A DNA stretch of 64,000 nucleotides from Candidatus Kuenenia stuttgartensis (GTDB lineage Bacteria > Planctomycetota > Planctomycetia > Pirellulales > UBA1268). The stretch lies in NCBI GenBank assembly GCA_945870505.1, contig CAMBSN010000003.1:1-64000 (forward strand), given 5' to 3'. The stretch's first letter is position 1. Every line of letters begins with the position of its first letter. Of the stretch, positions 1 through 15,346 are shown one piece after another. The notes under the pieces are model-generated. The model saw only the letters and a program-made list of their open reading frames with translations, had not been told where the DNA came from and did not search any database. A program made the translations under genes and the position numbers.

Positions 1-1934
1 TGCGTGAGTGCACCAAGGACAGCCAGATTGCGGTCCAGCAGTTCGACTTCGTTTGCGTTGGTGTAGAGCCGGCCGGCGGAGGCAAATCCAACGTATGACG
101 AAGTTTTACCGACTGTGAGTTTCCCTCCGTCGGCCTCGATCCATGAACCGTAGGCGGCGGACACATCGCCGGAGATCGCACCAGTGCCCAGAACGTTTGC
201 GCCCGCGCCGAGGGAGATACCGTTGGCAGCGAGAATCGTGCCGCCCGTGAGCGTCGACAGGCCGTTGACGTAGGCGAGGCCCTTCGACTTCAGTTCCAGC
301 GTCGCCGCAGAAGCCGCCGCGAGGCTGCCGGTGGTCGAAAAGCCATTGACGCTCGCGGTGCTGCCCACGATCAGCCGGCCCGCAGTCGCACCGAGGCCGC
401 TGGTGAAAGAGGTTTGACCCGTGAGCGTTGTGGTGCCCGTGCCAGCGTTCTGGACTGTGCCTGTGCCGCTGATGACGCTCGTCGAGTAGGTCAAAGCATC
501 GGAACGATTGAACGCGAGGGCAGCGTTGTTGACCACATTTCCGGCGATGAACCCCGTCGTTCCGCCTGCACCGACTTGCAGCGTGCCATCACTGATCGTC
601 GTGCCGCCCGTGTAGGAGTTGTTCCCTGATAGCGTCAGCGTGCCGGCGCCCTGCTTCGTCACTGCGCCAGTCCCGCTAATGACGCCTGAGTAGGTCGAGG
701 CGTCGGAACGGTTGAACGTGAGGGTGGCGTTATTGACCAAGTTTCCTACAATGGCCCCGGTCGTTCCGCCTGCACCAATCTGGAACACGCCGTCACCGAT
801 CGTCGTGCCGCCCGTGTAGGAGTTGTTCCCCGATAGGGTCAGCGTGCCGGCACCTTGCTTCGTGAGAATGCCGGTGCCACTGATGACACCCGAATAGGTC
901 GAGGCATCGGAGCGGTTGAAGACGAGCGTCCCATTATTAACGAGGCTGCCCGTGCCGCCGAGGAGTACTCCGCTTGTGGTTCCGACACCTATCTGGAGCG
1001 TGCCACCGGCGTTGACGTTGATGGTGCCATACGTGCCCTTCGAGAGCGTGCCGCCGACCGTTACAAGGCCACCCGTCATCAAGAATGTGCCGGTGCCGCT
1101 GCTGCTGCCCACGGCGAGATTGCCGCTGGTGGCCCACGTACCGCTCGACACCGTGGCCGTGCCGTTACTGCCGGCGTTGCTGCCGATATAGCCGGTTGTG
1201 TTGGTGACACTACCGCCGTTCACGTTGAGCGTGCCAGTGCCGCTGCTACCGACGAACAGATTGTTGTTACTCGCCCACGTACCGCTCGACACCGTGGCCG
1301 TGCCGTTACTGCCGGCGGTGGAGCCGAGAACGCCGGACGCGCTACTGACACGTCCGCCCGTCACGTTGAGCGTGCCGGTGCCGCTTCTGCCGACGGTGAG
1401 GTTACCGCTGTTAGCCCACGTGCCGCTGCTCGCCGTGGCTCTACCGTTGCTACCGGCGTAGAAGCCGAGATAGCCGTATGTGTTGGTGATGCTGCCGCCG
1501 TTCACGTTCAGCGTGCCGGTGCCGCTGCCGCCGACCCAGAGGTCGCCAGTTCCCGAACGAATCCACAGCAGCCCCGACGACGCAGAGGTGGTCATGTCCA
1601 GCACAACGGTATTCGCAGCAGCCGACGTGCCGGTCAGGTTCAGTGTGCCGGTGTTCGTCAGCGATAGCGTGCCAGTGCCCGAGATCGTGTTGCTAATGGT
1701 CAGGGTGTTGCCGCTTGACTGATTGAACTGCAGCGTGCCGTTGTCGGTGATGTTGCCCGTGACTGATGCGCCGTCGTTCAAGAGCACGGTGGCGCCGGAA
1801 GAGATCGTCCCTCCCGCATAGACGCCGGTGTAGGTCGTGGTCGCAGCCGTCGAGGAGTCTGCGCAGAGCGAGAGTAGCGAAGCCACGAAGGCGACGAGAG
1901 CAGACCGACATAAACGTGCTCGACCGTCAGCCAT
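1..1934 (-). CDS. Secreted beta-strand-repeat protein (autotransporter-associated / PEP-CTERM-associated repeats), C-terminus beyond left window edge
   Basis: Manual translation from ATG at 1934: MADGRARLCRSALVAFVASLLSLCADSSTAATTTYTGVYAGGTISSGATVLLNDG..., signal peptide then repeats such as GTGTLNVNGGSVTNTTGYIGSNAGSNGTATVSSGTWA and ISGTGAVTKQGAGTLTLSGNNSYTGGTTI; open to the edge, hence absent from the ORF track. Confidence 0.85.
   Translation of the reverse strand, partial: MADGRARLCRSALVAFVASLLSLCADSSTAATTTYTGVYAGGTISSGATVLLNDGASVTGNITDNGTLQFNQSSGNTLTISNTISGTGTLSLTNTGTLNLTGTSAAANTVVLDMTTSASSGLLWIRSGTGDLWVGGSGTGTLNVNGGSITNTYGYLGFYAGSNGRATASSGTWANSGNLTVGRSGTGTLNVTGGRVSSASGVLGSTAGSNGTATVSSGTWASNNNLFVGSSGTGTLNVNGGSVTNTTGYIGSNAGSNGTATVSSGTWATSGNLAVGSSSGTGTFLMTGGLVTVGGTLSKGTYGTINVNAGGTLQIGVGTTSGVLLGGTGSLVNNGTLVFNRSDASTYSGVISGTGILTKQGAGTLTLSGNNSYTGGTTIGDGVFQIGAGGTTGAIVGNLVNNATLTFNRSDASTYSGVISGTGAVTKQGAGTLTLSGNNSYTGGTTISDGTLQVGAGGTTGFIAGNVVNNAALAFNRSDALTYSTSVISGTGTVQNAGTGTTTLTGQTSFTSGLGATAGRLIVGSTASVNGFSTTGSLAAASAATLELKSKGLAYVNGLSTLTGGTILAANGISLGAGANVLGTGAISGDVSAAYGSWIEADGGKLTVGKTSSYVGFASAGRLYTNANEVELLDRNLAVLGALT
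480..930 (-). repeat. Exact 204-bp-period (68 aa) coding tandem repeat, about 3 copies
   Basis: The word taggtc at 487, 691 and 895 (spacing 204, 204) inside conserved blocks encoding FNRSDA.TYSGVISGTG..TKQGAGTLTLSGNNSYTGGTTI. Confidence 0.8.
1080..1540 (-). repeat. Exact 141-bp-period (47 aa) coding tandem repeat, about 3-4 copies
   Basis: cacgtt(g/c)agcgtgcc at about 1221, 1362 and 1503 (spacing 141, 141); encodes GTGTLNV.GG...G..GSNG.ATVSSGTWA..NNL.VG.S. Confidence 0.8.
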
Positions 1935-2086
1935 TGCCACGCTCCGCCCAAATGGTGCCCGGGGAGTCTGTACGCCATCCCTTACATGCGGGGTGTGCAC
2001 ATTGTGGCTATCGCGGCCAAGGGGTCAACGTTTCGGCAGGAATAGACGGCATACGAGTGCAGAAGCCGACCAGAAACTGCGCAGCC

Positions 2087-2347
2087 TCACCCCCACCGCC
2101 ATCTCGGAGGCTCGCCCTTCCACCAGCAGATCACGATAAAGGTGGCGATGAGCGTGCCAAACCCAGCCCAGAACCAGTTGGGATGGCGATCAGCGGGGAC
2201 AAGCACGCAGGGGCCGATGAGCAGGCCGACATAGCCCCCGAGCACGACCCATGCCTGCCATGTGCTCGGCAGGCCCCAACCCCAGCCGTAGGTCTTCGCC
2301 GGGAACCAGTGGCGGGGCTTCGGATGGGGCGGATCCTCAGATGACAT
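2087..2347 (-). CDS. Small membrane protein, hypothetical
   Basis: 86 aa with hydrophobic segments WVVLGGYVGLLIGPCVLV and WFWAGFGTLIATFIVICWW. Confidence 0.5.
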   Translation of the reverse strand: MSSEDPPHPKPRHWFPAKTYGWGWGLPSTWQAWVVLGGYVGLLIGPCVLVPADRHPNWFWAGFGTLIATFIVICWWKGEPPRWRWG

Positions 2348-2416
2348 TGGGTTGTTGGCAGTGGGCAGCGGCGGGAAATGCGAACGGCACCGGGCCGGCT
2401 AAGAACACTGACTTAT

Positions 2417-2774
2417 GCGCACGCTGAATTGACAACAATATCGCCGCGGATGAAGCAGTGTGGTCGCCGGGTACTGCTTTACTCACCCCGTTTCTGAGTC
2501 AGGGCCCATGCTCGCGATGACCGCAGCCCATCCCGGCGGCTATCTGTGAGGCGAGCCGGACCTGACCAACCCTGATTCGCGCAGCCAAGCCCGCGCACGC
2601 CACCATGATCGGCCCCGAAGGCTTGTTGGGCAGAACGCGGCCGCAGTGCTTTTGATGCCCGTGCAGTCCGGCCAGCCCAAGCCCGAGCCAATTCACTGCA
2701 CAGGCACTAGTATTAAGTTTTTTCCCGCACCCTGAGAAACCTACCGGCGTCTTTGTTGTCAATTCAACGCACGC
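2417..2774. mobile_element. Candidate MITE-like element bounded by inverted repeats, no ORF with transposase character
   Basis: Perfect 14-bp inverted repeat TGAATTGACAACAA (2425-2438) / TTGTTGTCAATTCA (2753-2766), extendable to about 22 bp with 3 mismatches. Confidence 0.45.
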
Positions 2775-3000
2775 CCCATGTACACAGCCGGCGTTCGCTT
2801 GCGCTCGCCACCCCATGCGCTACGATGGCGGCATGAGTCACGGACGAGCCACGAGGGCCGGCTTGGGGGCGTCGTTGTGCTGCCGGCGGGTGAGCATGGG
2901 GTCGAGCCAAACAAGCCCTCTGGTAAGCGCTGGGAGCCCTTCTCGGTGGTGTTCGCGGGGAGGGCTGGGCTGGAGCGAACTGGGCGACGTCGTGGGGCAT

Positions 3001-3327
3001 ATGCGGCTCACGCTGCCGCCCGCCAAGCCCGTGGTCGTGAGGGCGGCTACACTGGATCCCGGGCTATTGGGAACGTGTGCGCGGCGGCCGGAGAGGTTCG
3101 TCATCAGGCTGAATAAGGCCCTGACGGACGCCGAGGCCACCGAGACGCTGCTCCACGAATGGGCCCACGCATTGGCATGGAGTTTCACCTTCGACAGACT
3201 GGCTAGAACTCCTGACACCACCCGGGAAGCCTTTGAAGCCGCCGCCCATGACGAGGCTTGGGGGTGCGCTTATTCGCGGGTGTGGCGGGAATACGTGAGG
3301 ATGCACGATGCCGAAGATGCCAAGTGA
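3001..3327 (+). CDS. Putative small zinc metallopeptidase-like protein (HExxH)
   Basis: LLHEWAHALAW motif; start at ATG 3001 (MRLTLPPAKP) more plausible than the 2815 start. Confidence 0.5.
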   Translation: MRLTLPPAKPVVVRAATLDPGLLGTCARRPERFVIRLNKALTDAEATETLLHEWAHALAWSFTFDRLARTPDTTREAFEAAAHDEAWGCAYSRVWREYVRMHDAEDAK

Positions 3328-4069
3328 AGAGATTGACGTAAAGGCTGGGGAGTCGAATCTCCTGCCAATACTGGACCACCTCGCGTGGCTGGCCGAGCGC
3401 GTTGCCGACAAGGCCAACGCCGGCCGGGCCTATGATGCCGCGCTGCTGACCTACAACGCCGCGGTCATGCTGGAGTGGCGATTTAGGTTTCCGCTTGGCG
3501 ATTGGGCTGTCCCACCGGATAGCCCTCGATGGGCCGAGGCCGCCAAACTCGTGGACGACCTCTCGATGTCGTCCCGGGCGATCGTCGAGAAGGTTGAGGC
3601 TGCGCCGAAGAAGAAAGCCGACGCCTACCGGCCCAAGTTGAGGATGCTCATCAAGAGAGTGCTCAAGAAACTACCGGCCGTACTCTCGGTGCGAACTCCG
3701 AAGCCGGCTTATATGCCCGCGCTGGACTGGTCGCCCAACGTCCGGCTGCTCATGGACGAGTTTCTGGACGCCCATCGGCACGAGTACGCCGACGCGATCA
3801 AGAAGGGCTTGGCTGCCGGCAAGGCAGACAGCGTCGGCCCGGAGGCGGCCCTGAGCGAAGCCATCGCGAGCCTCCTGTACGTGCACACCTCGCAAGGTAT
3901 GGCAGCCCAGTCTGTAGACCACCGCCGCTCGCTCGGCCAAATGGCGTCGGGATTTCTCAAGACCGCCGTCGAGGACCTACCGGATGGCGTGCCTGCAGCC
4001 CAGAAGAAGCGATGGCGCCGGTTGGCCAAATGGTTCGCTGCCGATAGCGCCGACGCCAAGGTGAAGTAG
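3308..4069 (+). CDS. Hypothetical protein
   Basis: 253 aa ORF overlapping the end of the previous gene by 20 bp, same strand, operon-like. Confidence 0.5.
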   Translation: MPKMPSEEIDVKAGESNLLPILDHLAWLAERVADKANAGRAYDAALLTYNAAVMLEWRFRFPLGDWAVPPDSPRWAEAAKLVDDLSMSSRAIVEKVEAAPKKKADAYRPKLRMLIKRVLKKLPAVLSVRTPKPAYMPALDWSPNVRLLMDEFLDAHRHEYADAIKKGLAAGKADSVGPEAALSEAIASLLYVHTSQGMAAQSVDHRRSLGQMASGFLKTAVEDLPDGVPAAQKKRWRRLAKWFAADSADAKVK

Positions 4070-4079
4070 CCCTCGCGCC

Positions 4080-5096
4080 ATGGCCAAGAAAAAGAAAAAA
4101 GCCGCCAAGCGGGTGGCGAAGCGGGCCGGGAAACGATCCACCAAGCGTGGGCAAGTGGTTGCGAAGCGCGCGGCACGGAAGAAGTCCGAGGGGCCGGCTG
4201 TGGATCGGTCGCTTCCTGAGAGTCACGTGGCGCTTCCGCAGGCCGACGCGCTCAAGACGCTAGCCGATGCCGTGCTTGGCCTGACGGCCAGCAACGAACA
4301 AATCGTGCGGGAACAGCGCGAGCATCGCCTTACCTTGGAGATGCTCTTGGAGTCCGTCGCCAAAGGCTCCGCTGCTATGGACCGCATCGAGGCGGCCCAG
4401 CAGGCTCCACCGCGAGACCCGAGCCTTGACGTGCCGGCGAGCGTGGCAGTGAAGCGATTCTTTTTTGCCGGGGCGTGCGCACATCTAAACCTCGTTCGGC
4501 CGACACCTGCGATCGTCGGCCGAGCGATGCACACCACCAACGCCACCTCTCGCACAACGGCGAGGAGTCCGTATGTATTGTTCAACGAGATCCACACATC
4601 GATGCTACTTGCGTTCGGCCTGAAGGCATCGACTCCCGCGGCCCCTGTGACGACGGCAAGAGACTTCATTCACCTCGACGCGGAAATGGTTGACGTGATA
4701 GAGGACCGATCCAAGCGACCAAAAAAGAAACATTGGAAGTTCTACGAAAGCCAGTTGGGGCCGCGCCTCCGGCTTCTTGTGAACATGAGGCTTGCCAACG
4801 TTGACCCGAACAATGTGGGAGAGCGGATCGATTACGACCGCTACCTAACGAAGTTGGGGCAAGAGTTGTTCGACGGCTGGCCGGACTGGAACGACACGAC
4901 TGGCGGAATTGGCATCTTGGACGACGTTCCGGCATCAATAATGGGTGTGTCCAAGGTGGTAGGGCCGGCTGGATCGAAGCCCACTCCTGCAACTATGACT
5001 ACACCTGCGCCAGAGCCCGCGCCCGAATCTGCGCCCACACCTGCGCCCAAGCCCGACGCTGGCGCCGAGCCTGAGCCTACTTCGCCGGCTCCGTGA
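4080..5096 (+). CDS. Hypothetical protein with Lys-rich N-terminus and Pro/Glu-rich C-terminus
   Basis: 338 aa; MAKKKKKAAKRVAKRAGKRSTKR... start and PAPEPAPESAPTPAPKPDAGAEPEP end; 11 bp after previous gene. Confidence 0.5.
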   Translation: MAKKKKKAAKRVAKRAGKRSTKRGQVVAKRAARKKSEGPAVDRSLPESHVALPQADALKTLADAVLGLTASNEQIVREQREHRLTLEMLLESVAKGSAAMDRIEAAQQAPPRDPSLDVPASVAVKRFFFAGACAHLNLVRPTPAIVGRAMHTTNATSRTTARSPYVLFNEIHTSMLLAFGLKASTPAAPVTTARDFIHLDAEMVDVIEDRSKRPKKKHWKFYESQLGPRLRLLVNMRLANVDPNNVGERIDYDRYLTKLGQELFDGWPDWNDTTGGIGILDDVPASIMGVSKVVGPAGSKPTPATMTTPAPEPAPESAPTPAPKPDAGAEPEPTSPAP

Positions 5097-7569
5097 CCGT
5101 GACCTTGTCGGCCTTGCTGAACGACCGGCGGACCTCGGTCTCGACGCGGACGTTGGCGCCGGGCACGACCGTCTGCATGCCCGTGATCATGAGCCGCTCG
5201 ATGTCGGCGATCTTGGCGGGGAGAGTCTCGTCCTCGGGCACCTCGATGATGACCTCGTCGTGGATGAAGTTCACGATCGTGTAGCCGGCGCGCATGAGGC
5301 CCCAGAGAGCGTAGATGGCACCGTCGGCCGCGAGCCCCTGCATGATGCCGTTTCTGCACGCGGCGTAACTGGCGTTGGCCCGGAGCCTACCCGTCGCTGT
5401 GATGACCGGCTCGCGGCTATAGATCCTGCTGACGGCATCCCGGAGCCGCTTCGAGGGCTTTCGCTCTCGAAGGGCGTCGCAGAGTTTGTCGTCCAGTTCG
5501 TCGGTGGGGAGCCGTGCCGCCGCCTGCCAGAAGTACTCGATCTCGGCGGCTGAATATGGGCGGGGCTGGTTGCCGGATTCCGGGAGCGGGTTGGTCATCG
5601 GGGCGGGTGACTCAAGCACCTTCAGAAGCATGCCGCCGAGCCACCCCGCGGGCAGGTCGTCTTCGGGCTTGGGGAATAGCCGAGGTTTGCCTGTCGCCGC
5701 GTAATAGGCCGCCGGCGTGAGCCCCAACGCGCGGGCAATTTCGAGGCCCCCATTCACCCGCTCGCTCAAGTGCGCGGTCAACTCGGGGCACAGGGTCTCG
5801 TACGCCTGCATGCGTTCCCGGACCTGCTCCTCGGTCAGGTCGACACCGTAGTCGTTCTTGGCCTGCTTCTGGATGGTCTTCCCACCCAGACCTCCGGGGC
5901 GGCCGAGCGACACCGGTTTGGCGGCGTTACGCTCATCATCGGTCACGTCCTCCGGGGCCTTGCCGAGCACGTACGCCGCGATCAACCGGTGCATGTCGCC
6001 GCCGCCCGCAATGATGTCATGCAGGCTGCCGCCGAAGCCGAGTTGGTGTTTCCAAGCCCAACCCAGCGTGACTAGTTCAATCGTCTTGTAGTCCAGCACC
6101 ACAAACACGTTCCCCGGGGCCGGCACGAAGCAGCCCCGGATCGTCGTGGCGTGGTTTTCAGTGGCGGCCCGTTCCTTCGGTAAGTTCTGGAGATTGAACC
6201 CGCCGACGTCTTTCTTGCCGCCGTTGCAACTCGTCCGGCCGGTGTTCATGAGGTACTCGAAATTTCCGTGGACGCGTTTCCCGGACACCATCTTCTTGGC
6301 GTAGGTCGAGAGGAGTTTTGTGGCCTGCCGGTGCCTGAGCAGGACTTCGAGCACTGGGTCCAAGCCGGCGAGTTCCTTCAGTTGCTCCTCGCTCGTCGCA
6401 ATCTGGCCGGTCTCTGTATAGATCAGTGGTAGGGTTTCGCCCGCCTGCTTGTGCTCATTGGCTAGCCGTTCGATGCGTTTGACGAGGGCGGAGGTCTTGC
6501 CGGCGCCCTCAACAGGAAGTCCAGCCAGAGCGAGCGTTCGGCGGGTCTCGGCGACGATCTGTTCGAGGACGGCCAACTTTTCCTCGCGGCGGGCTTGGTC
6601 GATGAGGACCCCCGTGCGCGAGATCTTGTCCGTGACGATGCTAGCCCTGAGTTGGATGTCGTGGGTGCCGGGGCCGTGTTTCTTCCGCTGTTCGGCGAGC
6701 CATTTTTCACCCGCATAGCCATAGGCCCCGACCGCGATGGTTTTGATGACGTCTAGTTCGGGCTTCAGTCGCTCGAACAGAAGCCACGTCGCTACCGGGT
6801 CTCCTGCGGCGTATTGGAGGTATTGGGCCGGGTACGCTTCGAGGGGCTTGCCGTGGTACCTGCCGAATGTGAGCCGGACAGATTCGCCGTCCGGAGTCTT
6901 GTCGTCCTTGGGGAGCGACAGGGAGAGGTAATGGCTCGCGCAGTAGTCGAGCGAGCACTGGTTCCGCGCCGAGTGCCCAACCGTGCCGAGCGAAAGCAGC
7001 CGGGCGAGGATCAGCGTATCGGCTACTCTTCCGGCCTCGACGCGGGAATAAACGTCAATTGAAAGCCCTCTCCGATCGTGAGCCGCCTGCAGTACCGGCA
7101 GATCGAAGGCGGCGTTGTGGAAGATGAGCGGGTTGGCGGGGTGGCTGGCCAAGAAGGCGGGCATGTCCGTGGCCAAGATGAACCAGCCCTGCCGCCCGTC
7201 GAAGGCTGCTCCCAAGACGAGCGTGGGCACGTGCGCTGGGCGCGTGTCGTCGATCTTGGTCGTTTCAGTGTCCAGTGCGAAGCGGCCGGTGATGACGCGG
7301 CCAAGGGTGGGTTCCCAGAGGCGGAACAGGTACTGGTCGGGCCCGAGGGTGAGGACGAAGCCCCCGGAGGGTGAAAGGGTGAAGCAGGGCGAAGTGAAGT
7401 TTCGGGGCACTTCACCCTCGTTTGGGCCTTGTTTTCCAGTGTTTTTCGCACTTGGGTGAAGAGGTGAAGTGAAATCAGCATCTCTTCGGCCTAGATGCAC
7501 ACACTCCTCCCCATGCCCATATCCAAGACTGAGAGATTTTTCCTTTACAGATTTTGGTTTTGACTTCAC
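5077..7569 (-). CDS. Family A DNA polymerase with 3'-5' exonuclease domain (phage/mobile-element type); start uncertain, may lie well downstream of 7569
   Basis: Exo motifs FALDTETT and FHNAAFDLPVL; Pol motif A VVLDYKTIELV, motif B RNAAKPVSLGRPGG, motif C FIHDEVIIEV; no 5' nuclease domain. Confidence 0.88.
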   Translation of the reverse strand: MKSKPKSVKEKSLSLGYGHGEECVHLGRRDADFTSPLHPSAKNTGKQGPNEGEVPRNFTSPCFTLSPSGGFVLTLGPDQYLFRLWEPTLGRVITGRFALDTETTKIDDTRPAHVPTLVLGAAFDGRQGWFILATDMPAFLASHPANPLIFHNAAFDLPVLQAAHDRRGLSIDVYSRVEAGRVADTLILARLLSLGTVGHSARNQCSLDYCASHYLSLSLPKDDKTPDGESVRLTFGRYHGKPLEAYPAQYLQYAAGDPVATWLLFERLKPELDVIKTIAVGAYGYAGEKWLAEQRKKHGPGTHDIQLRASIVTDKISRTGVLIDQARREEKLAVLEQIVAETRRTLALAGLPVEGAGKTSALVKRIERLANEHKQAGETLPLIYTETGQIATSEEQLKELAGLDPVLEVLLRHRQATKLLSTYAKKMVSGKRVHGNFEYLMNTGRTSCNGGKKDVGGFNLQNLPKERAATENHATTIRGCFVPAPGNVFVVLDYKTIELVTLGWAWKHQLGFGGSLHDIIAGGGDMHRLIAAYVLGKAPEDVTDDERNAAKPVSLGRPGGLGGKTIQKQAKNDYGVDLTEEQVRERMQAYETLCPELTAHLSERVNGGLEIARALGLTPAAYYAATGKPRLFPKPEDDLPAGWLGGMLLKVLESPAPMTNPLPESGNQPRPYSAAEIEYFWQAAARLPTDELDDKLCDALRERKPSKRLRDAVSRIYSREPVITATGRLRANASYAACRNGIMQGLAADGAIYALWGLMRAGYTIVNFIHDEVIIEVPEDETLPAKIADIERLMITGMQTVVPGANVRVETEVRRSFSKADKVTVTEPAK

Positions 7570-7665
7570 CTCTTCACCCTCCGCATGAAAGTGCCTTGTT
7601 TTCTAGATCCAAACGAGGGTGAAGTGAACTTTTTGGGCACTTCACCCTGCTTCACCTCTTCACCC
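7370..7665. repeat. Iteron-like array of ten GGTGAAG/CTTCACC heptamers with mirror symmetry; candidate replication origin
   Basis: Heptamers start at 7378(+), 7410(-), 7455(+), 7463(+), 7564(-), 7572(-), 7618(+), 7640(-), 7650(-), 7658(-); several pairs are symmetric about ~7517. Confidence 0.7.
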
Positions 7666-9633
7666 TCGCCCCGGCCCCCAGAGGTCATCCTCCTGCCCCT
7701 CGCCGGCAGCCTCGGGCTCGCCTCGGCCACCGTCGCCGTCACGATCTCTATTACCCCCGCTGACCTCAGGCCCCGGCGGCAGGAGGGTGATGGCGTCGGA
7801 GTCGGCGCAGCCGGTCGGGGTCGCCTCCGCGCCAGCACCGCCGTCACCGCCCTCCGCGTCCGTGCCCTTCACCTCCGACAAGCCCTTCACGGCGAGAGCG
7901 TAGGCCACGCGGCGTCCCCCGAGCGGCCGGCTTACGATCATCGCCTGCACCGTCCGCTCGCCCACCTCGACCTCGACGGGCACCTTGAGCACCCCGTTGA
8001 GGTACTGCGAGGCGGCGGTCTTCTGCTTATCCGGCGTCGTGCATGCGGCCGTGATGACGCCGGCGCCGGCAAGGTAATGCACCCAGTCCTTCTGCTCCCT
8101 CGGGTTCGCCGGCCGGGGTCCACGCTTAAACTCGTCGTCAGCGGCCTCGATGTCACCTTCGACCTCCAACACGAACGACTTATCCCTGCTGTCAATTAAG
8201 CGCTCCGCGATGGCGACCAACTGCTGGTGCGTCGTCGAGTGCTGGCGCACCTCCTCTCGGGCGTTTGACAGGAAGCCCGGCAGGCCGTTAGCGGCAAGGA
8301 TGCTGCCGACGGTGTTGCTGAACTTCTCGAACCGACCCGGCGTGTGGACTATTATGCGGCCGGCATCAAGCCACCGGCGCACCATCCCCGCCGCCTCGGC
8401 CAAGATCCCCGCCCGGTTCGTCTTCACGAACCCGACGACCTCGTCCTCGGTCACAGCGTATTGGTGTGCGCCCGGATCACCTTCGTAGTGCATCCGAATG
8501 TGGATGCACCGTGACAAAAGGTCGTCGCTCGGGGCCCCGTTGTTTGTTGTAAACAGCCAGAGGATGTCATTTGGCTTTCGAATCTTGTTTTGGGTGAAGA
8601 ATCCGCGAGGACCGAGTTCGGAATCCGTTATGTTTGCCTCAAGTGTCGGGTGGTTGATCTTCCCCTTCTGGTTGTCGAAAAACAGCGTCGTGCGGCCATC
8701 GTTCAGTTCACTAGCGATCTGGTTTTCGATCTCCCTCGCACCGCTCTCTAACGACGTAGGTGCCGCTTGCTTGCCGTCCTTGAGGATGGCGAGGCACTGC
8801 GCCGCCAAGGATTTGCCGATGCCGGGCTTGTTGCCCCAAAACATCATGGCGGGGTGTCCGGCTTCGATGAACAGGGGCATCAGTACGGTCATCAATGGCC
8901 CAGCGATGCAGTTGATGAGATCGATCGGCGACTTCCAGTGAAACCCCCGCACCCACTCGCGCATCAATGGCGGTAGGCGATCCAGCACCTCCCTGACGGT
9001 CGCCGGCGCCGTGAGGCTCAATCCCAAGGGTGGCAAGTCAATTGGATCGAAGGACTCCCCGCACACGAGAATGCGCTGGCTCTCGTGGTAGCCCGCGTCG
9101 AGCCAGACGAAGTCGTTGTCGAACACCGGGTGGCTCGTGAGGAGCCTCGCCTCAGGGATCGACGCCATGAAGTTGTCCATGACGACCACCTGCTGGAGCA
9201 CCGATTGTGGCACTGGAAACTGCACGGGATACACCGAAGGTTGATCCACCTTCGCGCCCTTGCCGGTCGAGTTCGCCTTCATCTCCCGGCAATAGACGAC
9301 GTTGCTTACCAGCGCGGACGCAGTCTTGGTGGCGACGCCATCGACGGCAAGTGGCGTGACGTGGCAGGCGCCTTCGGGGAGATGGCCGTTGGTCAGGAAG
9401 ACAACCGTGTTGCCTTGACGGAACACTCGACCGCAGTCTTTGAGGCAGTTCCTGATCGTATCGAGCGTCTCGGTCGCCTCGCCGATGATCAAGCCGCTCG
9501 ACGTGACGTTGGTGATCAGCCGGGGGCCGGTGACGCCGCGGGCCATGGCGACCGCGGCAGACCGAGCCTGCCGCAGATCACGCATGATCCAGTTGTGGGC
9601 GCCGCGGCGGTTGAAGTCTGCAAAACTAACCAC
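7660..9633 (-). CDS. AAA+/SF3-like replicative helicase (primase-helicase C-terminal type)
   Basis: Walker A MMFWGNKPGIGKSLAAQ, Walker B TTLFFDNQKG, ILWLFTTNNGAPSDDLLSRCI sensor-like region; GTG start at 9633 (VVSFADFNRRG) gives a short overlap with upstream gene ending at 9626. Confidence 0.7.
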   Translation of the reverse strand: MVSFADFNRRGAHNWIMRDLRQARSAAVAMARGVTGPRLITNVTSSGLIIGEATETLDTIRNCLKDCGRVFRQGNTVVFLTNGHLPEGACHVTPLAVDGVATKTASALVSNVVYCREMKANSTGKGAKVDQPSVYPVQFPVPQSVLQQVVVMDNFMASIPEARLLTSHPVFDNDFVWLDAGYHESQRILVCGESFDPIDLPPLGLSLTAPATVREVLDRLPPLMREWVRGFHWKSPIDLINCIAGPLMTVLMPLFIEAGHPAMMFWGNKPGIGKSLAAQCLAILKDGKQAAPTSLESGAREIENQIASELNDGRTTLFFDNQKGKINHPTLEANITDSELGPRGFFTQNKIRKPNDILWLFTTNNGAPSDDLLSRCIHIRMHYEGDPGAHQYAVTEDEVVGFVKTNRAGILAEAAGMVRRWLDAGRIIVHTPGRFEKFSNTVGSILAANGLPGFLSNAREEVRQHSTTHQQLVAIAERLIDSRDKSFVLEVEGDIEAADDEFKRGPRPANPREQKDWVHYLAGAGVITAACTTPDKQKTAASQYLNGVLKVPVEVEVGERTVQAMIVSRPLGGRRVAYALAVKGLSEVKGTDAEGGDGGAGAEATPTGCADSDAITLLPPGPEVSGGNRDRDGDGGRGEPEAAGEGQEDDLWGPGRG

Positions 9634-10462
9634 GGGAGTCCTCTCTCTTGTCGAGGAACGTGGGGGAATAGAAGAGGTACACCATCGCGGCGGCATCCAC
9701 CCGCCCGCACTCGTAGCACTCGACCTGCCAGTTACCGACGACCCCCAGCGTGTGGGTGGTCGCTCCGCACAGTGGGCAGGGCGACGCTCGCTCGCCGCCG
9801 AAGAACAGCCGCATCCACAGGCGGGCCGGAGCGTTTGCCAACCGCTGGTTAAGGTCGAGGATCTCAGCGCGAGTGATCGGCTCGCCCTTGCGCAGCACCC
9901 GAACCTTCCTAGGCGGGTCGACCTTCGTGTTGCGTGCCCCGACCGGCCGGGTCATAGCGACGATGCCGTTAAGGCTCGGATCACCCGGCAGCACGTTCCG
10001 CAGCCCTCGGGCGATCTTGTCCCAGTGGCGAGCGTCGTCGCCGGCACAGATGATCGGCTCGTCCAGCATCAGGAGCACGTGCAGGCCGTGGCCGCTGTCC
10101 CGGACCTGCGCTTTGGCGAGCACCGGGTCGCGGTCGAGCCAGTGTCTGACGTGCTGCTTGTATAAGGCTGCCGGCGACCGAACGCATTCCTCGCCGACGA
10201 TGGCGGGGTCGAGGATCTTGCAGTCGAGGTCCGACATGAAGGCATGGATCGAGGCGACCTCTTCGACCTTCGTTGCGATCTGATTGGCTGGGCCGCATTC
10301 GCGCCCGTTCACGAGCGACTCCCGCTCGTCGTTGGCACCGTGATCGTGAGCCCGCGAATGGGTGGCGGCGGAGTGTGGCGGCTGACCGGGTACGCCTCCA
10401 TCTAATTGCTGCTCGTCACGGTGCTTGGTCGCCCGCTTCGAGCGACCCTTCTTCTCTCGCAT
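9626..10462 (-). CDS. Primase-like protein with zinc finger
   Basis: HVLLMLDEPIICAGDDARHWDKIARGLRNVLPGDPSLNGIVAMTRPVGARNTK..., CPLCG...CYECGRVDAAAMVY zinc ribbon; probable start ATG 10462 (MREKKGRSKRATK). Confidence 0.6.
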   Translation of the reverse strand: MREKKGRSKRATKHRDEQQLDGGVPGQPPHSAATHSRAHDHGANDERESLVNGRECGPANQIATKVEEVASIHAFMSDLDCKILDPAIVGEECVRSPAALYKQHVRHWLDRDPVLAKAQVRDSGHGLHVLLMLDEPIICAGDDARHWDKIARGLRNVLPGDPSLNGIVAMTRPVGARNTKVDPPRKVRVLRKGEPITRAEILDLNQRLANAPARLWMRLFFGGERASPCPLCGATTHTLGVVGNWQVECYECGRVDAAAMVYLFYSPTFLDKREDSRG

Positions 10463-10563
10463 CTCGATGTCTCCGTTCTTCGTGTTCGACGGCGGCGTGC
10501 ACGTCGTTCCCCCAACATGGCGATATCGCCGGCGATCGCAAGAGACTTCGGACGTTCGATCGC

Positions 10564-10618
10564 GAGTCGACTCCCGTGTTGAAGGGAGTCGGACTCCCAA
10601 ACACAAGGGAGTCGACTC
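10564..10618. promoter_or_regulatory. Symmetric three-site palindromic array GAGTC(G)GACTC (operator or parS-like centromere)
   Basis: GAGTCGACTCCC 10564-10575, GGGAGTCGGACTCCC 10584-10598, GGGAGTCGACTC 10607-10618; outer centres 22.5 bp either side of the middle centre; between divergent primase and ParB-like genes. Confidence 0.75.
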
Positions 10619-10734
10619 GCTCGCGCAACCATTCCCAAGTCCAACTCCGCCGCTACCCTCGAAGTTGTCGTGGTCGAAGTGCACCACGACGAAACCTTCA
10701 CGGCCGCGCAACGCGGCAGGAAACGGAGCGAGTT

Positions 10735-11478
10735 ATGTCGGCGACGACGATCGAGATGAGCGATGCAGCAGTAGTTGATGCGCCGGTGGCGGCGACGTTG
10801 ATCGTGGTGAACGACGGGACGACGGCGGCCACGACGCCCGCGGCAGCCATGGAAGCGATGGTGGTTCGCGGCACTCCTTTAGTACCGGCCGCCGACGGTG
10901 AGCGTGGCGGCAACGGCGATGGTGGAGGCGGGGCGGAACCATATAAGGAGTCCGCGCCTCCGCCCTTGGAGGTCATCGGCGGCTATACAGTCCACCCGGT
11001 GGCCACGCTGTTCCCCTTGATGGCCGGCGACGAGTTCGAGGGCCTAGTCGAGTCGATCGGTAAGAACGGCCTCCGAGACCCGATCGTGCTGCAGGGGAAC
11101 ATGCTAATCGAGGGCCGCAACCGCATGCGGGCCGTCGAGTTGCTCAAGGCCCGGGGCGTGAACGTCACCTTGCTCACGGTCCCGTGGCAGCCGCGACCGG
11201 GTGAGACCGCCGCGCAGTACATCACCGACAAGAACATCCATCGGCGGCACCTCACCGACGCCCAGCGAGCCCAGATCGTCGCCGAGATCGTCCCCGTGAT
11301 CGAGGCGGAGTTGGCGGCGGAGAGGGTGAAGACCCAGATCAAGTCGGGGGAGGACTTCAATGCCCGCGTCGAGCGGGCGTGGGAGCACATCAAGGCGGCC
11401 CACTTCAGCGTCGAGGAGCACGAGCGGCTGCGGGAGGTGCTCGCGGCGAGGATCGAGGAGGGTGTGAGAAATGCGTGA
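10735..11478 (+). CDS. ParB-like nuclease/partition domain protein
   Basis: GDEFEGLVESIGKNGLRDPIVLQGNMLIEGRNRMRAVELLKARG ... ITDKNIHRRHLTDAQRAQIV; start ATG 10735 (MSATTIEMSD) chosen over 10273. Confidence 0.8.
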   Translation: MSATTIEMSDAAVVDAPVAATLIVVNDGTTAATTPAAAMEAMVVRGTPLVPAADGERGGNGDGGGGAEPYKESAPPPLEVIGGYTVHPVATLFPLMAGDEFEGLVESIGKNGLRDPIVLQGNMLIEGRNRMRAVELLKARGVNVTLLTVPWQPRPGETAAQYITDKNIHRRHLTDAQRAQIVAEIVPVIEAELAAERVKTQIKSGEDFNARVERAWEHIKAAHFSVEEHERLREVLAARIEEGVRNA

Positions 11479-11713
11479 GAATGGCAACGTGGACTCAGAT
11501 CGTGAGACGCTATTGGATGAGCGGGCCGCCGCGAGGTTCCTCGGCATCTGTCCTCGGAAGTTGTGGGGTCTCGCGAACAAGGGTGTCGTCCCCTTCATCA
11601 GGATCGGCGTAAAGTCAAAGCGATATTCCCAAAAGGATCTCGAAGACTTTATCGCGGCGAGCCGTCAAAGATCACCCGAACCAGCCGGTACCCAACAAGA
11701 CGATGTCGTCTAA
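11471..11713 (+). CDS. Excisionase-like helix-turn-helix protein
   Basis: LLDERAAARFLGICPRKLWGLANKGVVPFIRIGVKSKRYSQKDLEDFIAASR; immediately upstream of integrase. Confidence 0.75.
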   Translation: MRENGNVDSDRETLLDERAAARFLGICPRKLWGLANKGVVPFIRIGVKSKRYSQKDLEDFIAASRQRSPEPAGTQQDDVV

Positions 11714-11752
11714 CACGTCGATCGCTACAACGAATAAAAGGAGGAGTAAGCA

Positions 11753-13201
11753 ATGGCTTCGATTGGAAATGATCCCGGGGGCCGCCGCCGGATATTGTTT
11801 GTTGGTATGGACGGAAAACGGCACACCGTCCGCTTGGGGAAAATGCCAAAGCGTGCCGCCGAAGAAGTGAAGCGTCGTGTCGAGGAACTGATTGCCGCGC
11901 AAATCAGCCGTAGTCCGATCGACGCAGAGACCGCGCGCTGGGTGGCGGACCTGCCCGAGACCATGGTCACCCGCTTTGCCGCGGCTGGACTGGTAGCCGC
12001 ACGGGAGCGGAAGGTCACGGTGCCGCTCAAGAAGTTTCTCGACGCCTTCGTGGAGCGCAAGCGGAGGGTGAAGCCCGCCACCAAGGAAATCTGGGGGCAG
12101 GTCATCCGGAATCTCATCGACTGCTTCGGCGCGGATCACGACGTCGCGGCGGTAACCGAGGAGGACGCTGAAAAATTCAAGGATTATCTGATCGATCAGA
12201 AACTGGCCCGAACCACCATCTCGAAGCGGCTGCAGTTCACCCGCGGATTCTTCAAGTTCGCCGTCAAGAAGAAGTTGATCGTGCAGAACCCGTTCGCAGA
12301 GGTGTCCGAAGTCGCCGTCGGCCTGCCGAACACGAAGAGGTTTATTTCACATGAGGAGACGACGGCCCTGATGGCGGCCAGTGACCTGATGTGGCAGACC
12401 ATCATCGCCCTTGCCCGTTATGGCGGGCTTCGGTGCCCGAGCGAGGTTGCTTCGCTGCGGTGGGAAGACATCGACTGGAACAGTGGCCGCATGACCGTCA
12501 CGTCGCCAAAAACCGAGCATCACGAAGGGAAGGAGACTCGTGTGCTGCCAATCTTCCCGGAACTGGCCCCTGTGCTCGCCGCCGCTTTCGAGGCCGCAGA
12601 GGACGGCGCGGTTTACGTGATCGGCGGCAATGTACGGGCCAAAGCGTTGCAGCCACGCGGATGGCGATCGTGCAACCTGCGGACTCAGTTCGGCAGGATC
12701 ATCAAGCGGGCCGGGCTGAAGGCGTGGCCGCGCCTGTTCCACAATCTCCGCGCGAGCCGGGAGACCGAGTTGCTCCGCGAGCACCCCATCCACGTCGTGA
12801 CGGCGTGGCTGGGTAACTCGCCGCGGATCGCCCTCAAGCACTACTGCATGGTCACCGACCACGACTTTGACCGTGCCCGAGGTGTGGCTGCGGCCGCCGT
12901 CAACCAGGGAGTCGGTTCCGCGACACCTCCCATCGAACCGGCCGCCTTAAACACCCAGTCCTCTATAGAGGTATCGGCACCGGAGGGGCGCGGCACAGAA
13001 TCCGGCACAGTCGTGGCACAAAATGCGGCACAGCAACCGCACGCAGCCACTAGTAAGGTTTCGCACGCTTCGGGCGCAAAGCCTTCGCCCACCGTCACTT
13101 CTGCGAGTTCCTGCGACTCGCTGCGAAACCCTGCGAAACCCAAAAACGGAGAGGGCGGGATTCGAACCCGCGGTCCAGCTTTTGACCGGACACGTCTTTA
13201 G
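11753..13201 (+). CDS. Tyrosine-type site-specific integrase
   Basis: GGLRCPSEVASLRWEDIDW (Arg I), HNLRASRETELLREHPIHVVTAWLGNSPRIALKHYC (HxxR and catalytic Tyr); 3' end lies inside tRNA-Ser. Confidence 0.93.
   Translation: MASIGNDPGGRRRILFVGMDGKRHTVRLGKMPKRAAEEVKRRVEELIAAQISRSPIDAETARWVADLPETMVTRFAAAGLVAARERKVTVPLKKFLDAFVERKRRVKPATKEIWGQVIRNLIDCFGADHDVAAVTEEDAEKFKDYLIDQKLARTTISKRLQFTRGFFKFAVKKKLIVQNPFAEVSEVAVGLPNTKRFISHEETTALMAASDLMWQTIIALARYGGLRCPSEVASLRWEDIDWNSGRMTVTSPKTEHHEGKETRVLPIFPELAPVLAAAFEAAEDGAVYVIGGNVRAKALQPRGWRSCNLRTQFGRIIKRAGLKAWPRLFHNLRASRETELLREHPIHVVTAWLGNSPRIALKHYCMVTDHDFDRARGVAAAAVNQGVGSATPPIEPAALNTQSSIEVSAPEGRGTESGTVVAQNAAQQPHAATSKVSHASGAKPSPTVTSASSCDSLRNPAKPKNGEGGIRTRGPAFDRTRL
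12991..13032 (+). repeat. Four (C/T)GGCACA direct repeats spaced 12/11/12 bp
   Basis: cggcaca at 12991, 13003 and 13026, tggcaca at 13014. Confidence 0.6.
13101..13140 (+). repeat. Four 10-bp-phased CTGCGA direct repeats abutting the tRNA-Ser attachment site
   Basis: ctgcgagttc|ctgcgactcg|ctgcgaaacc|ctgcgaaacc at 13101-13140, 7 bp before the tRNA 3' end. Confidence 0.8.
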
Positions 13202-13236
13202 CAAAGACGCGCATTCGACCACTCTGCCACCTCTCC
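13148..13236 (-). tRNA. tRNA-Ser(GCT)
   Basis: Reverse complement GGAGAGGTGGCAGAGTGGTCGAATGCGCGTCTTTGCTAAAGACG...GCGGGTTCGAATCCCGCCCTCTCC; anticodon loop TTGCTAA; long variable arm. Confidence 0.95.
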
Positions 13237-14854: not shown

Positions 14855-15346
14855 TCAGTCGTCATCGTCGTCATCTTCCTCGTCCTCATCCTCGTCTTCC
14901 CAGTCCTCGTCGTCGTCTTCCCAGTCCTCGTCCTCTTCCTCTTCCTCGTCGTCCTCTTCCTCTTCTTCCTCGTCATCTTCCTCGTCGGAGTCGTCTTCGT
15001 CTTCGACCTCCTCCCACTCCTCCTCCTCCTCGTCCTCGTCGTCTTCCTCCTCTTCGTCTTCGTCCTCGTAATCGTCGTCTTCTTCATCCTCGTCGTCGTA
15101 ATCGTCGTCTTCGCCACCATCCTTGTCGGCTTCGTCACCGGCAGCGACGAGCCTGTCGTCTCGAAGCGTCCACCTGCCGTCCAACGTTGCGTCATCAGCG
15201 CGGTTGCCCGTAGCGACCGGCTCGCACGACGTCCCACATGCGTCGAAAAGGTCTACTGCGGCGAGCAACTCAGGCAGTTCGTTCCACGAGAACACGTCTG
15301 CGTCCCGAACATCTCGATGCTCACGGCCACTTGCAGCGATCGTCAC
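14855..15346 (-). CDS. Hypothetical protein with extremely acidic Asp/Glu-only C-terminal tail
   Basis: 163 aa, tail DDDYDDEDEEDDDYEDEDEEEEDDEDEEEEEWEE...; GTG start preceded by AGGAGG at 8 bp; terminator downstream. Confidence 0.75.
   Translation of the reverse strand: MTIAASGREHRDVRDADVFSWNELPELLAAVDLFDACGTSCEPVATGNRADDATLDGRWTLRDDRLVAAGDEADKDGGEDDDYDDEDEEDDDYEDEDEEEEDDEDEEEEEWEEVEDEDDSDEEDDEEEEEEDDEEEEEDEDWEDDDEDWEDEDEDEEDDDDDD

Follow-up and report, generated by a model that had tools for sequence, protein, structure and literature searches.

The window analysed here, a stretch of 64,000 nucleotides, is the first 64 kb of the 76.9-kb contig C3 of a draft genome (3.35 Mb in 180 contigs), and its position 1 is the first base of that contig. 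Its left part holds a block of integration and replication genes beside a tRNA-Ser(GCT) gene, with the following features.

3–1934, minus strand: PATR-repeat secreted protein, running off the contig (PATR, 2e-23)
2087–2347, minus strand: predicted membrane protein of 86 aa, with a homologue in G002:C326
3001–3327, plus strand: orfA, SprT/M78-like with an HExxH motif (SprT-like, 1e-4, below cut-off)
3308–4069, plus strand: orfB; G011 has a weak homologue (32%, 3e-4) in the corresponding place
4080–5096, plus strand: orfC, with a lysine-rich N-terminus and positional counterparts
5077–7410, minus strand: family A DNA polymerase with a 3'-5' exonuclease domain (DNA_pol_A 6e-29, exonuclease 4e-8)
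7378–7664, no strand: iteron array and putative replication origin, with ten GGTGAAG copies, direct and inverted, placed about an AT-richer spacer
7660–9633, minus strand: AAA+/SF3-like replicative helicase (motifs; PHROG 10537, 1e-26)
9626–10462, minus strand: predicted AEP-type primase of 278 aa with a C-terminal zinc-ribbon-like motif (motifs, predicted fold)
10562–10626, no strand: three palindromic operator-like sites, GAGTCGACTC, GAGTCGGACTC and GAGTCGACTC (sequence inspection)
10735–11478, plus strand: ParB-like DNA-binding protein (PHROG ParB-like partition protein, 3e-7 to 5e-6)
11471–11713, plus strand: excisionase-like helix-turn-helix protein (Pfam HTH_17 1.4e-7, PHROG excisionase 4e-5)
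11753–13201, plus strand: tyrosine integrase (Pfam Phage_integrase 1.4e-10, PHROG integrase 2e-36)
13145–13163, plus strand: attR core AACGGAGAGGGCGGGATTC, the 3' end of the tRNA (19 bp, exact copy on contig C76)
13147–13236, minus strand: tRNA-Ser(GCT), the integration target (ARAGORN, Rfam tRNA)

The gene block described in the first-pass annotation proved real. ARAGORN, Pfam and PHROG recovered the tRNA-Ser(GCT) gene with the tyrosine integrase, the excisionase-like helix-turn-helix protein and the ParB-like protein on one strand, and Pfam and PHROG searches, motif alignments and the predicted primase fold agreed on a primase, an AAA+ helicase and a family A polymerase divergent from the integrase side. 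Three further ORFs are present beside the replication and integration genes, and no virion or conjugation gene was recognisable with Pfam or PHROG within 2.4–13.2 kb, as had also been claimed.

The integrase is about 40% identical to that of a tRNA-Met element in genome G018. Its frame crosses the att core into the tRNA gene (window 13145–13201), so that its last residues are tRNA-encoded and would change on excision. Integrase frames reaching through a tRNA end were also seen at L220:10258–11694, L077:4980–6713 and L212:15415–17148. The ParB-like protein had no Pfam match; homologues occur in elements of G044, G002 and G009, and ParA is absent. The palindromes at 10562–10626 are GAGTC-centred, weakly enriched (18/300 shuffles) and located in the divergent primase/parB promoter region, and are likely operators. 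Homologues of orfA, 56–61% identical, were found in loci of G009, G011, G018 and G008; orfB has a positional counterpart in G009, and lysine-rich ORFs occupy the orfC position in the G009 and G011 elements, a correspondence of position alone with no BLAST match.

Neither the primase nor the helicase gave a convincing Pfam match. The primase motifs are invariant in an alignment of eight relatives, and the top PDB fold matches of the predicted structure (pLDDT 77) were mostly AEP primase-polymerases, at weak significance (best 6zp9, E 4e-3); on its motifs and this weak fold match, 9626–10462 is predicted to encode an AEP-type primase. The helicase motifs are conserved among five to six relatives, comprising the Walker-type NKPGIGKS and LFFDN followed by LWLFTTNN and an Arg-finger-like SRCIHIR; the predicted helicase structure was set aside, its model quality being too poor. 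Remote matches to this protein, the probable initiator, were found in phages and small plasmids, and records matching it come from freshwater and estuarine planctomycete MAGs, some of them labelled Pirellulales. The polymerase, whose start is uncertain (7410 or 7569), retains the catalytic-type motifs DTET and HDE conserved in the alignment, matches Klenow/Taq in PDB profile searches (8e-40) and belongs to the phage-type family PHROG 17 (1.5e-75). Its relatives in IMG/VR are distant (about 21–37% identity, with one short segment at 49%), and pattern scans of IMG/VR, which reach only moderately diverged relatives, gave no match to the primase or helicase. No entry of the plasmid collection matched the primase sequence.

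The iteron array at 7378–7664 was absent from the first-pass annotation. Seven GGTGAAG copies fall within the 249-bp gap between the helicase and polymerase genes, compared with a shuffle mean of 2.23 (0/300 shuffles as high). The same gap contained 7-bp iterons in 8/8 loci examined, where it measures 197–397 bp, one gap being truncated where its contig stops, with a GC content of 0.37–0.53. Iteron counts exceeded those of dinucleotide shuffles in all eight gaps, each being equalled by 0 to 3 of 300 shuffles, and unit density was 68–322 times that of the surrounding sequence; the test was run after the repeats had been noticed, the best 7-mer being picked for real and shuffled sequences alike, and the gap had not been chosen blindly. 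Control gaps were mostly unremarkable; a poly-A run in G260 stood out, as did GC-rich repeats, though weakly. When the whole 64 kb was scanned without preselection, the helicase-polymerase gap ranked top, apart from one low-complexity gene. The window and G014 share the iteron GGTGAAG in a well-conserved array, and the overlapping AGGGTGA is used in G002:C341; the units found elsewhere are AGTTGAG (G002:C277), TTAACCT (G082), GTCCACC (G272), GGTTAAC with GGTGAAC (G260) and GTGAACC (G064). Most loci share a similar layout: closely spaced iterons lie at the stop codon of the helicase gene, followed by one copy in inverted orientation, two in tandem, a spacer richer in AT and finally an inverted pair. 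A variant module carries eight copies of TGACGAT after its replication gene. Replication origins of E. coli PICIs are described as an AT-rich region with one set of iterons on either side (PMC6092414), and by its architecture the gap is a putative PICI-like origin.

The primase profile matched 9/397 genomes of the order, the source genome included, and a search of 392 genomes drawn from the phylum added one partial match. At several primase loci the same helicase and polymerase follow; all three genes occur together in six other loci where the contig permits (G014, G002:C277, G064, G082, G260 and G272). The suggested search for this replication block in related genomes thus found it conserved. 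An integrase lies near the cassette in G082 and G064, and none was seen near it in G260 and G272. Other loci combine the same flanking genes with other replication genes, namely an NrS-1-like primase-helicase in G002:C7 and a DUF669 protein with a DnaB-like helicase in G009:C14. Elements that share their remaining genes have thus swapped replication modules.

Two elements in G018 are bounded by tRNA-Met repeats: a 43-bp repeat delimits one of 16.0 kb, and a 15-bp repeat one of about 38 kb. The larger, at tRNA-Met(CAT) on G018:C7 at about 146,250–184,150 (L220, L221 and L211), has the integrase about 40% identical to that of the window, an excisionase-like protein and a family A polymerase, together with a SIR2-like gene, and carries a BREX operon (BrxA, BrxB, PglZ, BrxL) as cargo; no integrase was recognised in the smaller. 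Capsid, portal, terminase and relaxase genes were not recognised in the two G018 elements (about 40 proteins scanned, a few large or boundary-crossing ORFs excepted) or in the G009 proteins scanned with them. Because contig C3 begins at position 1, these two elements stand in for the proposed look further left for structural genes, and they showed none that could be recognised. No att repeats were found for the G082, G002 and G009 tRNA-Gly elements.

The tRNA-Ser gene and its M28 peptidase neighbourhood are common to many relatives. A gene with a long acidic run (poly-D/E) lies downstream of the peptidase at window 14855–15346, and similar genes occupy the same place in relatives. The comparison proposed earlier, a search for an empty tRNA-Ser site, identified four relatives (G001, G007, G011 and G012) in which no integrase adjoins this tRNA, and other relatives carry different integrases there. 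The sequences flanking the tRNA form several groups, of which some are about 75–95% identical across species and even genera, as expected for an insertion hotspot. Collectively, these comparisons point to a repeatedly used insertion site that is apparently vacant in four relatives. At locus L058, two tRNA-Ser(GCT) genes (2484–2575 and 3536–3627) lie in a 99-bp identical repeat with starts 1.05 kb apart, and probably mark both termini of an insertion that has almost disappeared.

The core AACGGAGAGGGCGGGATTC has a single other exact copy in its own genome, at C76:2038–2056 on the minus strand, where there is no tRNA. The 16-bp core also occurs outside a tRNA in G009 and G002, and in 3/3 genomes (the C76 copy, G009 and G002) similarity to the tRNA ends exactly after GGGATTC. 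The C76 copy is flanked by a large serine recombinase on one side and by chromosomal-looking genes on the other; this recombinase (L244:3–1784) shares 81% identity with a recombinase that G016 carries close to tRNA-Ser (L066:2147–3259). No second copy of the core was found in window 1–13144, so the left end either was lost or is located to the left of where the contig begins. Since the contig starts at position 1, the window lacks a second core and a copy exists on C76, the element probably continues past the C3 contig edge. The C76 copy is a candidate rather than a proven left end of this element, because its flank is also similar to the terminus of a different integrase element, the gene on its chromosomal side does not neighbour tRNA-Ser in relatives, and it may be part of a second, tandem insertion. 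The left limit at 2417 given by the first-pass annotation, and with it a complete 11-kb unit, therefore found no support, the contig beginning at position 1 and the left end being unassembled.

Other candidate boundaries were also rejected. An imperfect inverted repeat at 2417–2446/2745–2774 (30 nt, 80% complementary, 298 nt apart) is single-copy in the genome and lacks the tRNA core, and was discarded as a MITE or att left limit. The orfA gene was rejected as a fixed end marker, adjoining the att repeat in the two G018 elements but being internal in G011, and nothing supported joining C8, a contig of the same genome with a nuclease fragment of this element family beside a PATR paralogue, to C3. 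The homologue of the 86-aa ORF in G002:C326 (72% identical in DNA) adjoins element-family genes and a PATR protein; since both occur beside such genes there, the 86-aa protein and the PATR protein may be element cargo.

We regard the element as probably an integrative, plasmid-like replicon, and the sequence evidence favours one that could start its own replication fork. The earlier description as a self-replicating, plasmid-like integrative element is thus well supported by the att core at a repeatedly used tRNA, the four relatives with no integrase there, the module of the relatives and the origin layout, apart from its end at about 2.4 kb. Weighing against this reading are the missing ParA, the weak fold match of the primase, the unassembled left end of this copy and the failure to recognise an integrase in the 16-kb G018 element. 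Int, aided by the helix-turn-helix excisionase, would move the element into and out of the tRNA-Ser 3' end via the 19-bp core. In the circular form, the helicase/initiator would bind the iterons downstream of its gene and melt the AT-rich spacer, the AEP primase would synthesize primers for extension by the family A polymerase that the element itself encodes, with the ParB-like protein regulating the circle or helping to maintain it. We infer excision, autonomous replication, the iteron-reading protein and the ParB role; the gene content, the att core copies, the occupied and apparently vacant sites, the iteron array, the module exchange and the absence of recognised virion or conjugation genes from the two att-bounded G018 elements are read from the genomes themselves.

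Among the alternatives, a phage satellite of the PICI/P4 type, replicating itself after excision and packaged in the particles of a helper phage, would share the integrase-excisionase-primase-helicase-origin set and the iterons flanking an AT-rich region as in E. coli PICIs (PMC6092414), and would fit the absence of own structural genes and the defence cargo of a relative. We consider this unlikely, as no small terminase or capsid-remodelling gene was recognised in the elements scanned, no helper phage is known, the 38-kb member is large for a satellite, and IMG/VR held no primase or helicase match. Possession of a polymerase and a ParB-like protein is also unusual for satellites. A domesticated or decaying genomic island, no longer mobile, would explain integrase remnants at the same tRNA in G013 and G018, the split polymerase frame in G064 and the lack of a left att in the window, but is very improbable given that all window genes are open, the catalytic-type motifs are intact and the iterons are well conserved with G014. 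Least probable is a reduced or defective prophage retaining integration and replication genes: the phage-type family of the polymerase (PHROG 17, 1.5e-75) and the remote similarity of the helicase to phage proteins speak for it, yet diverged elements repeatedly carry the module with no virion genes, two att-bounded sister elements show none, and IMG/VR gives distant polymerase relatives only and no primase or helicase relatives.

Beyond the integrative replicon itself, a broader proposal is possible, if somewhat short of probable: that these are members of a modular Pirellulales superfamily with common flanks, swappable replication cassettes bearing their own iterons in a similar geometry (orthogonal origin-initiator pairs) and BREX-type defence cargo, and the first family A self-synthesizing integrative elements. 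The common flanking genes of the family are the SprT-like orfA, orfB, orfC, the ParB-like gene and Int. No description of the family was found in titles and abstracts of the open-access literature, which is weak evidence of novelty since only open-access papers were covered; the element family of this order is apparently undescribed, and its larger members can carry anti-phage defence systems. Mobile elements of Planctomycetota are seemingly little described in the literature searched. The elements suggest a route by which defence genes and large cell-surface proteins could travel through the phylum without recognisable phage or conjugation genes. Their diverged initiator-iteron pairs of similar geometry would make origin recognition by AAA+ helicases directly testable, they may offer replicons for hosts with few genetic tools, and they would broaden the concept of the self-synthesizing integrative element beyond family B polymerases to those of family A.

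Several known systems share parts of this organization. With IMEs and ICEs the element shares a tRNA-targeting tyrosine integrase, accretion at one tRNA and variable cargo, but no relaxase, coupling protein or T4SS gene was recognised in the window, whose element has its left part unassembled, or in the proteins scanned from two att-bounded relatives. Unlike a temperate phage, it shows no recognised capsid, portal or terminase genes in the window and relatives scanned, the left part again being unassembled. In ICETh2 of Thermus, an integrative element, a primase-polymerase likewise lies beside a helicase, and Ppol was reported to be dispensable for element replication (PMC7693054). Small prim-pol plasmids also use a primase and an AAA+ helicase as replication proteins, and plasmid replication proteins from Saccharopolyspora, Streptomyces and Methanothrix show remote similarity to the helicase of the window. 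Judged by sequence, the likeness to PICI/P4 extends to integrase, excisionase, primase, helicase/initiator and two iteron sets around an AT-rich region (PMC6092414), whereas the window element has its own family A polymerase and a ParB-like protein and comes from a different phylum; terS and capsid-remodelling genes were not recognised in the window or in proteins scanned from two att-bounded relatives. Pipolins are likewise integrative, with their own DNA polymerase, a tyrosine recombinase and an excisionase-like protein (PMC7385651), and the core copies and att-bounded relatives show the same att direct repeats, one overlapping a tRNA, together with a recombinase. Restriction-modification components are common in E. 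coli pipolins (PMC7385651), comparable to the BREX cargo of the G018 relative. In contrast to pipolins, the window element has a family A rather than a primer-independent family B polymerase (piPolB), a separate primase and helicase, and an iteron origin. Only partly covered by the tested definition of either, the element is PICI-like in its origin layout and pipolin-like in owning its polymerase.
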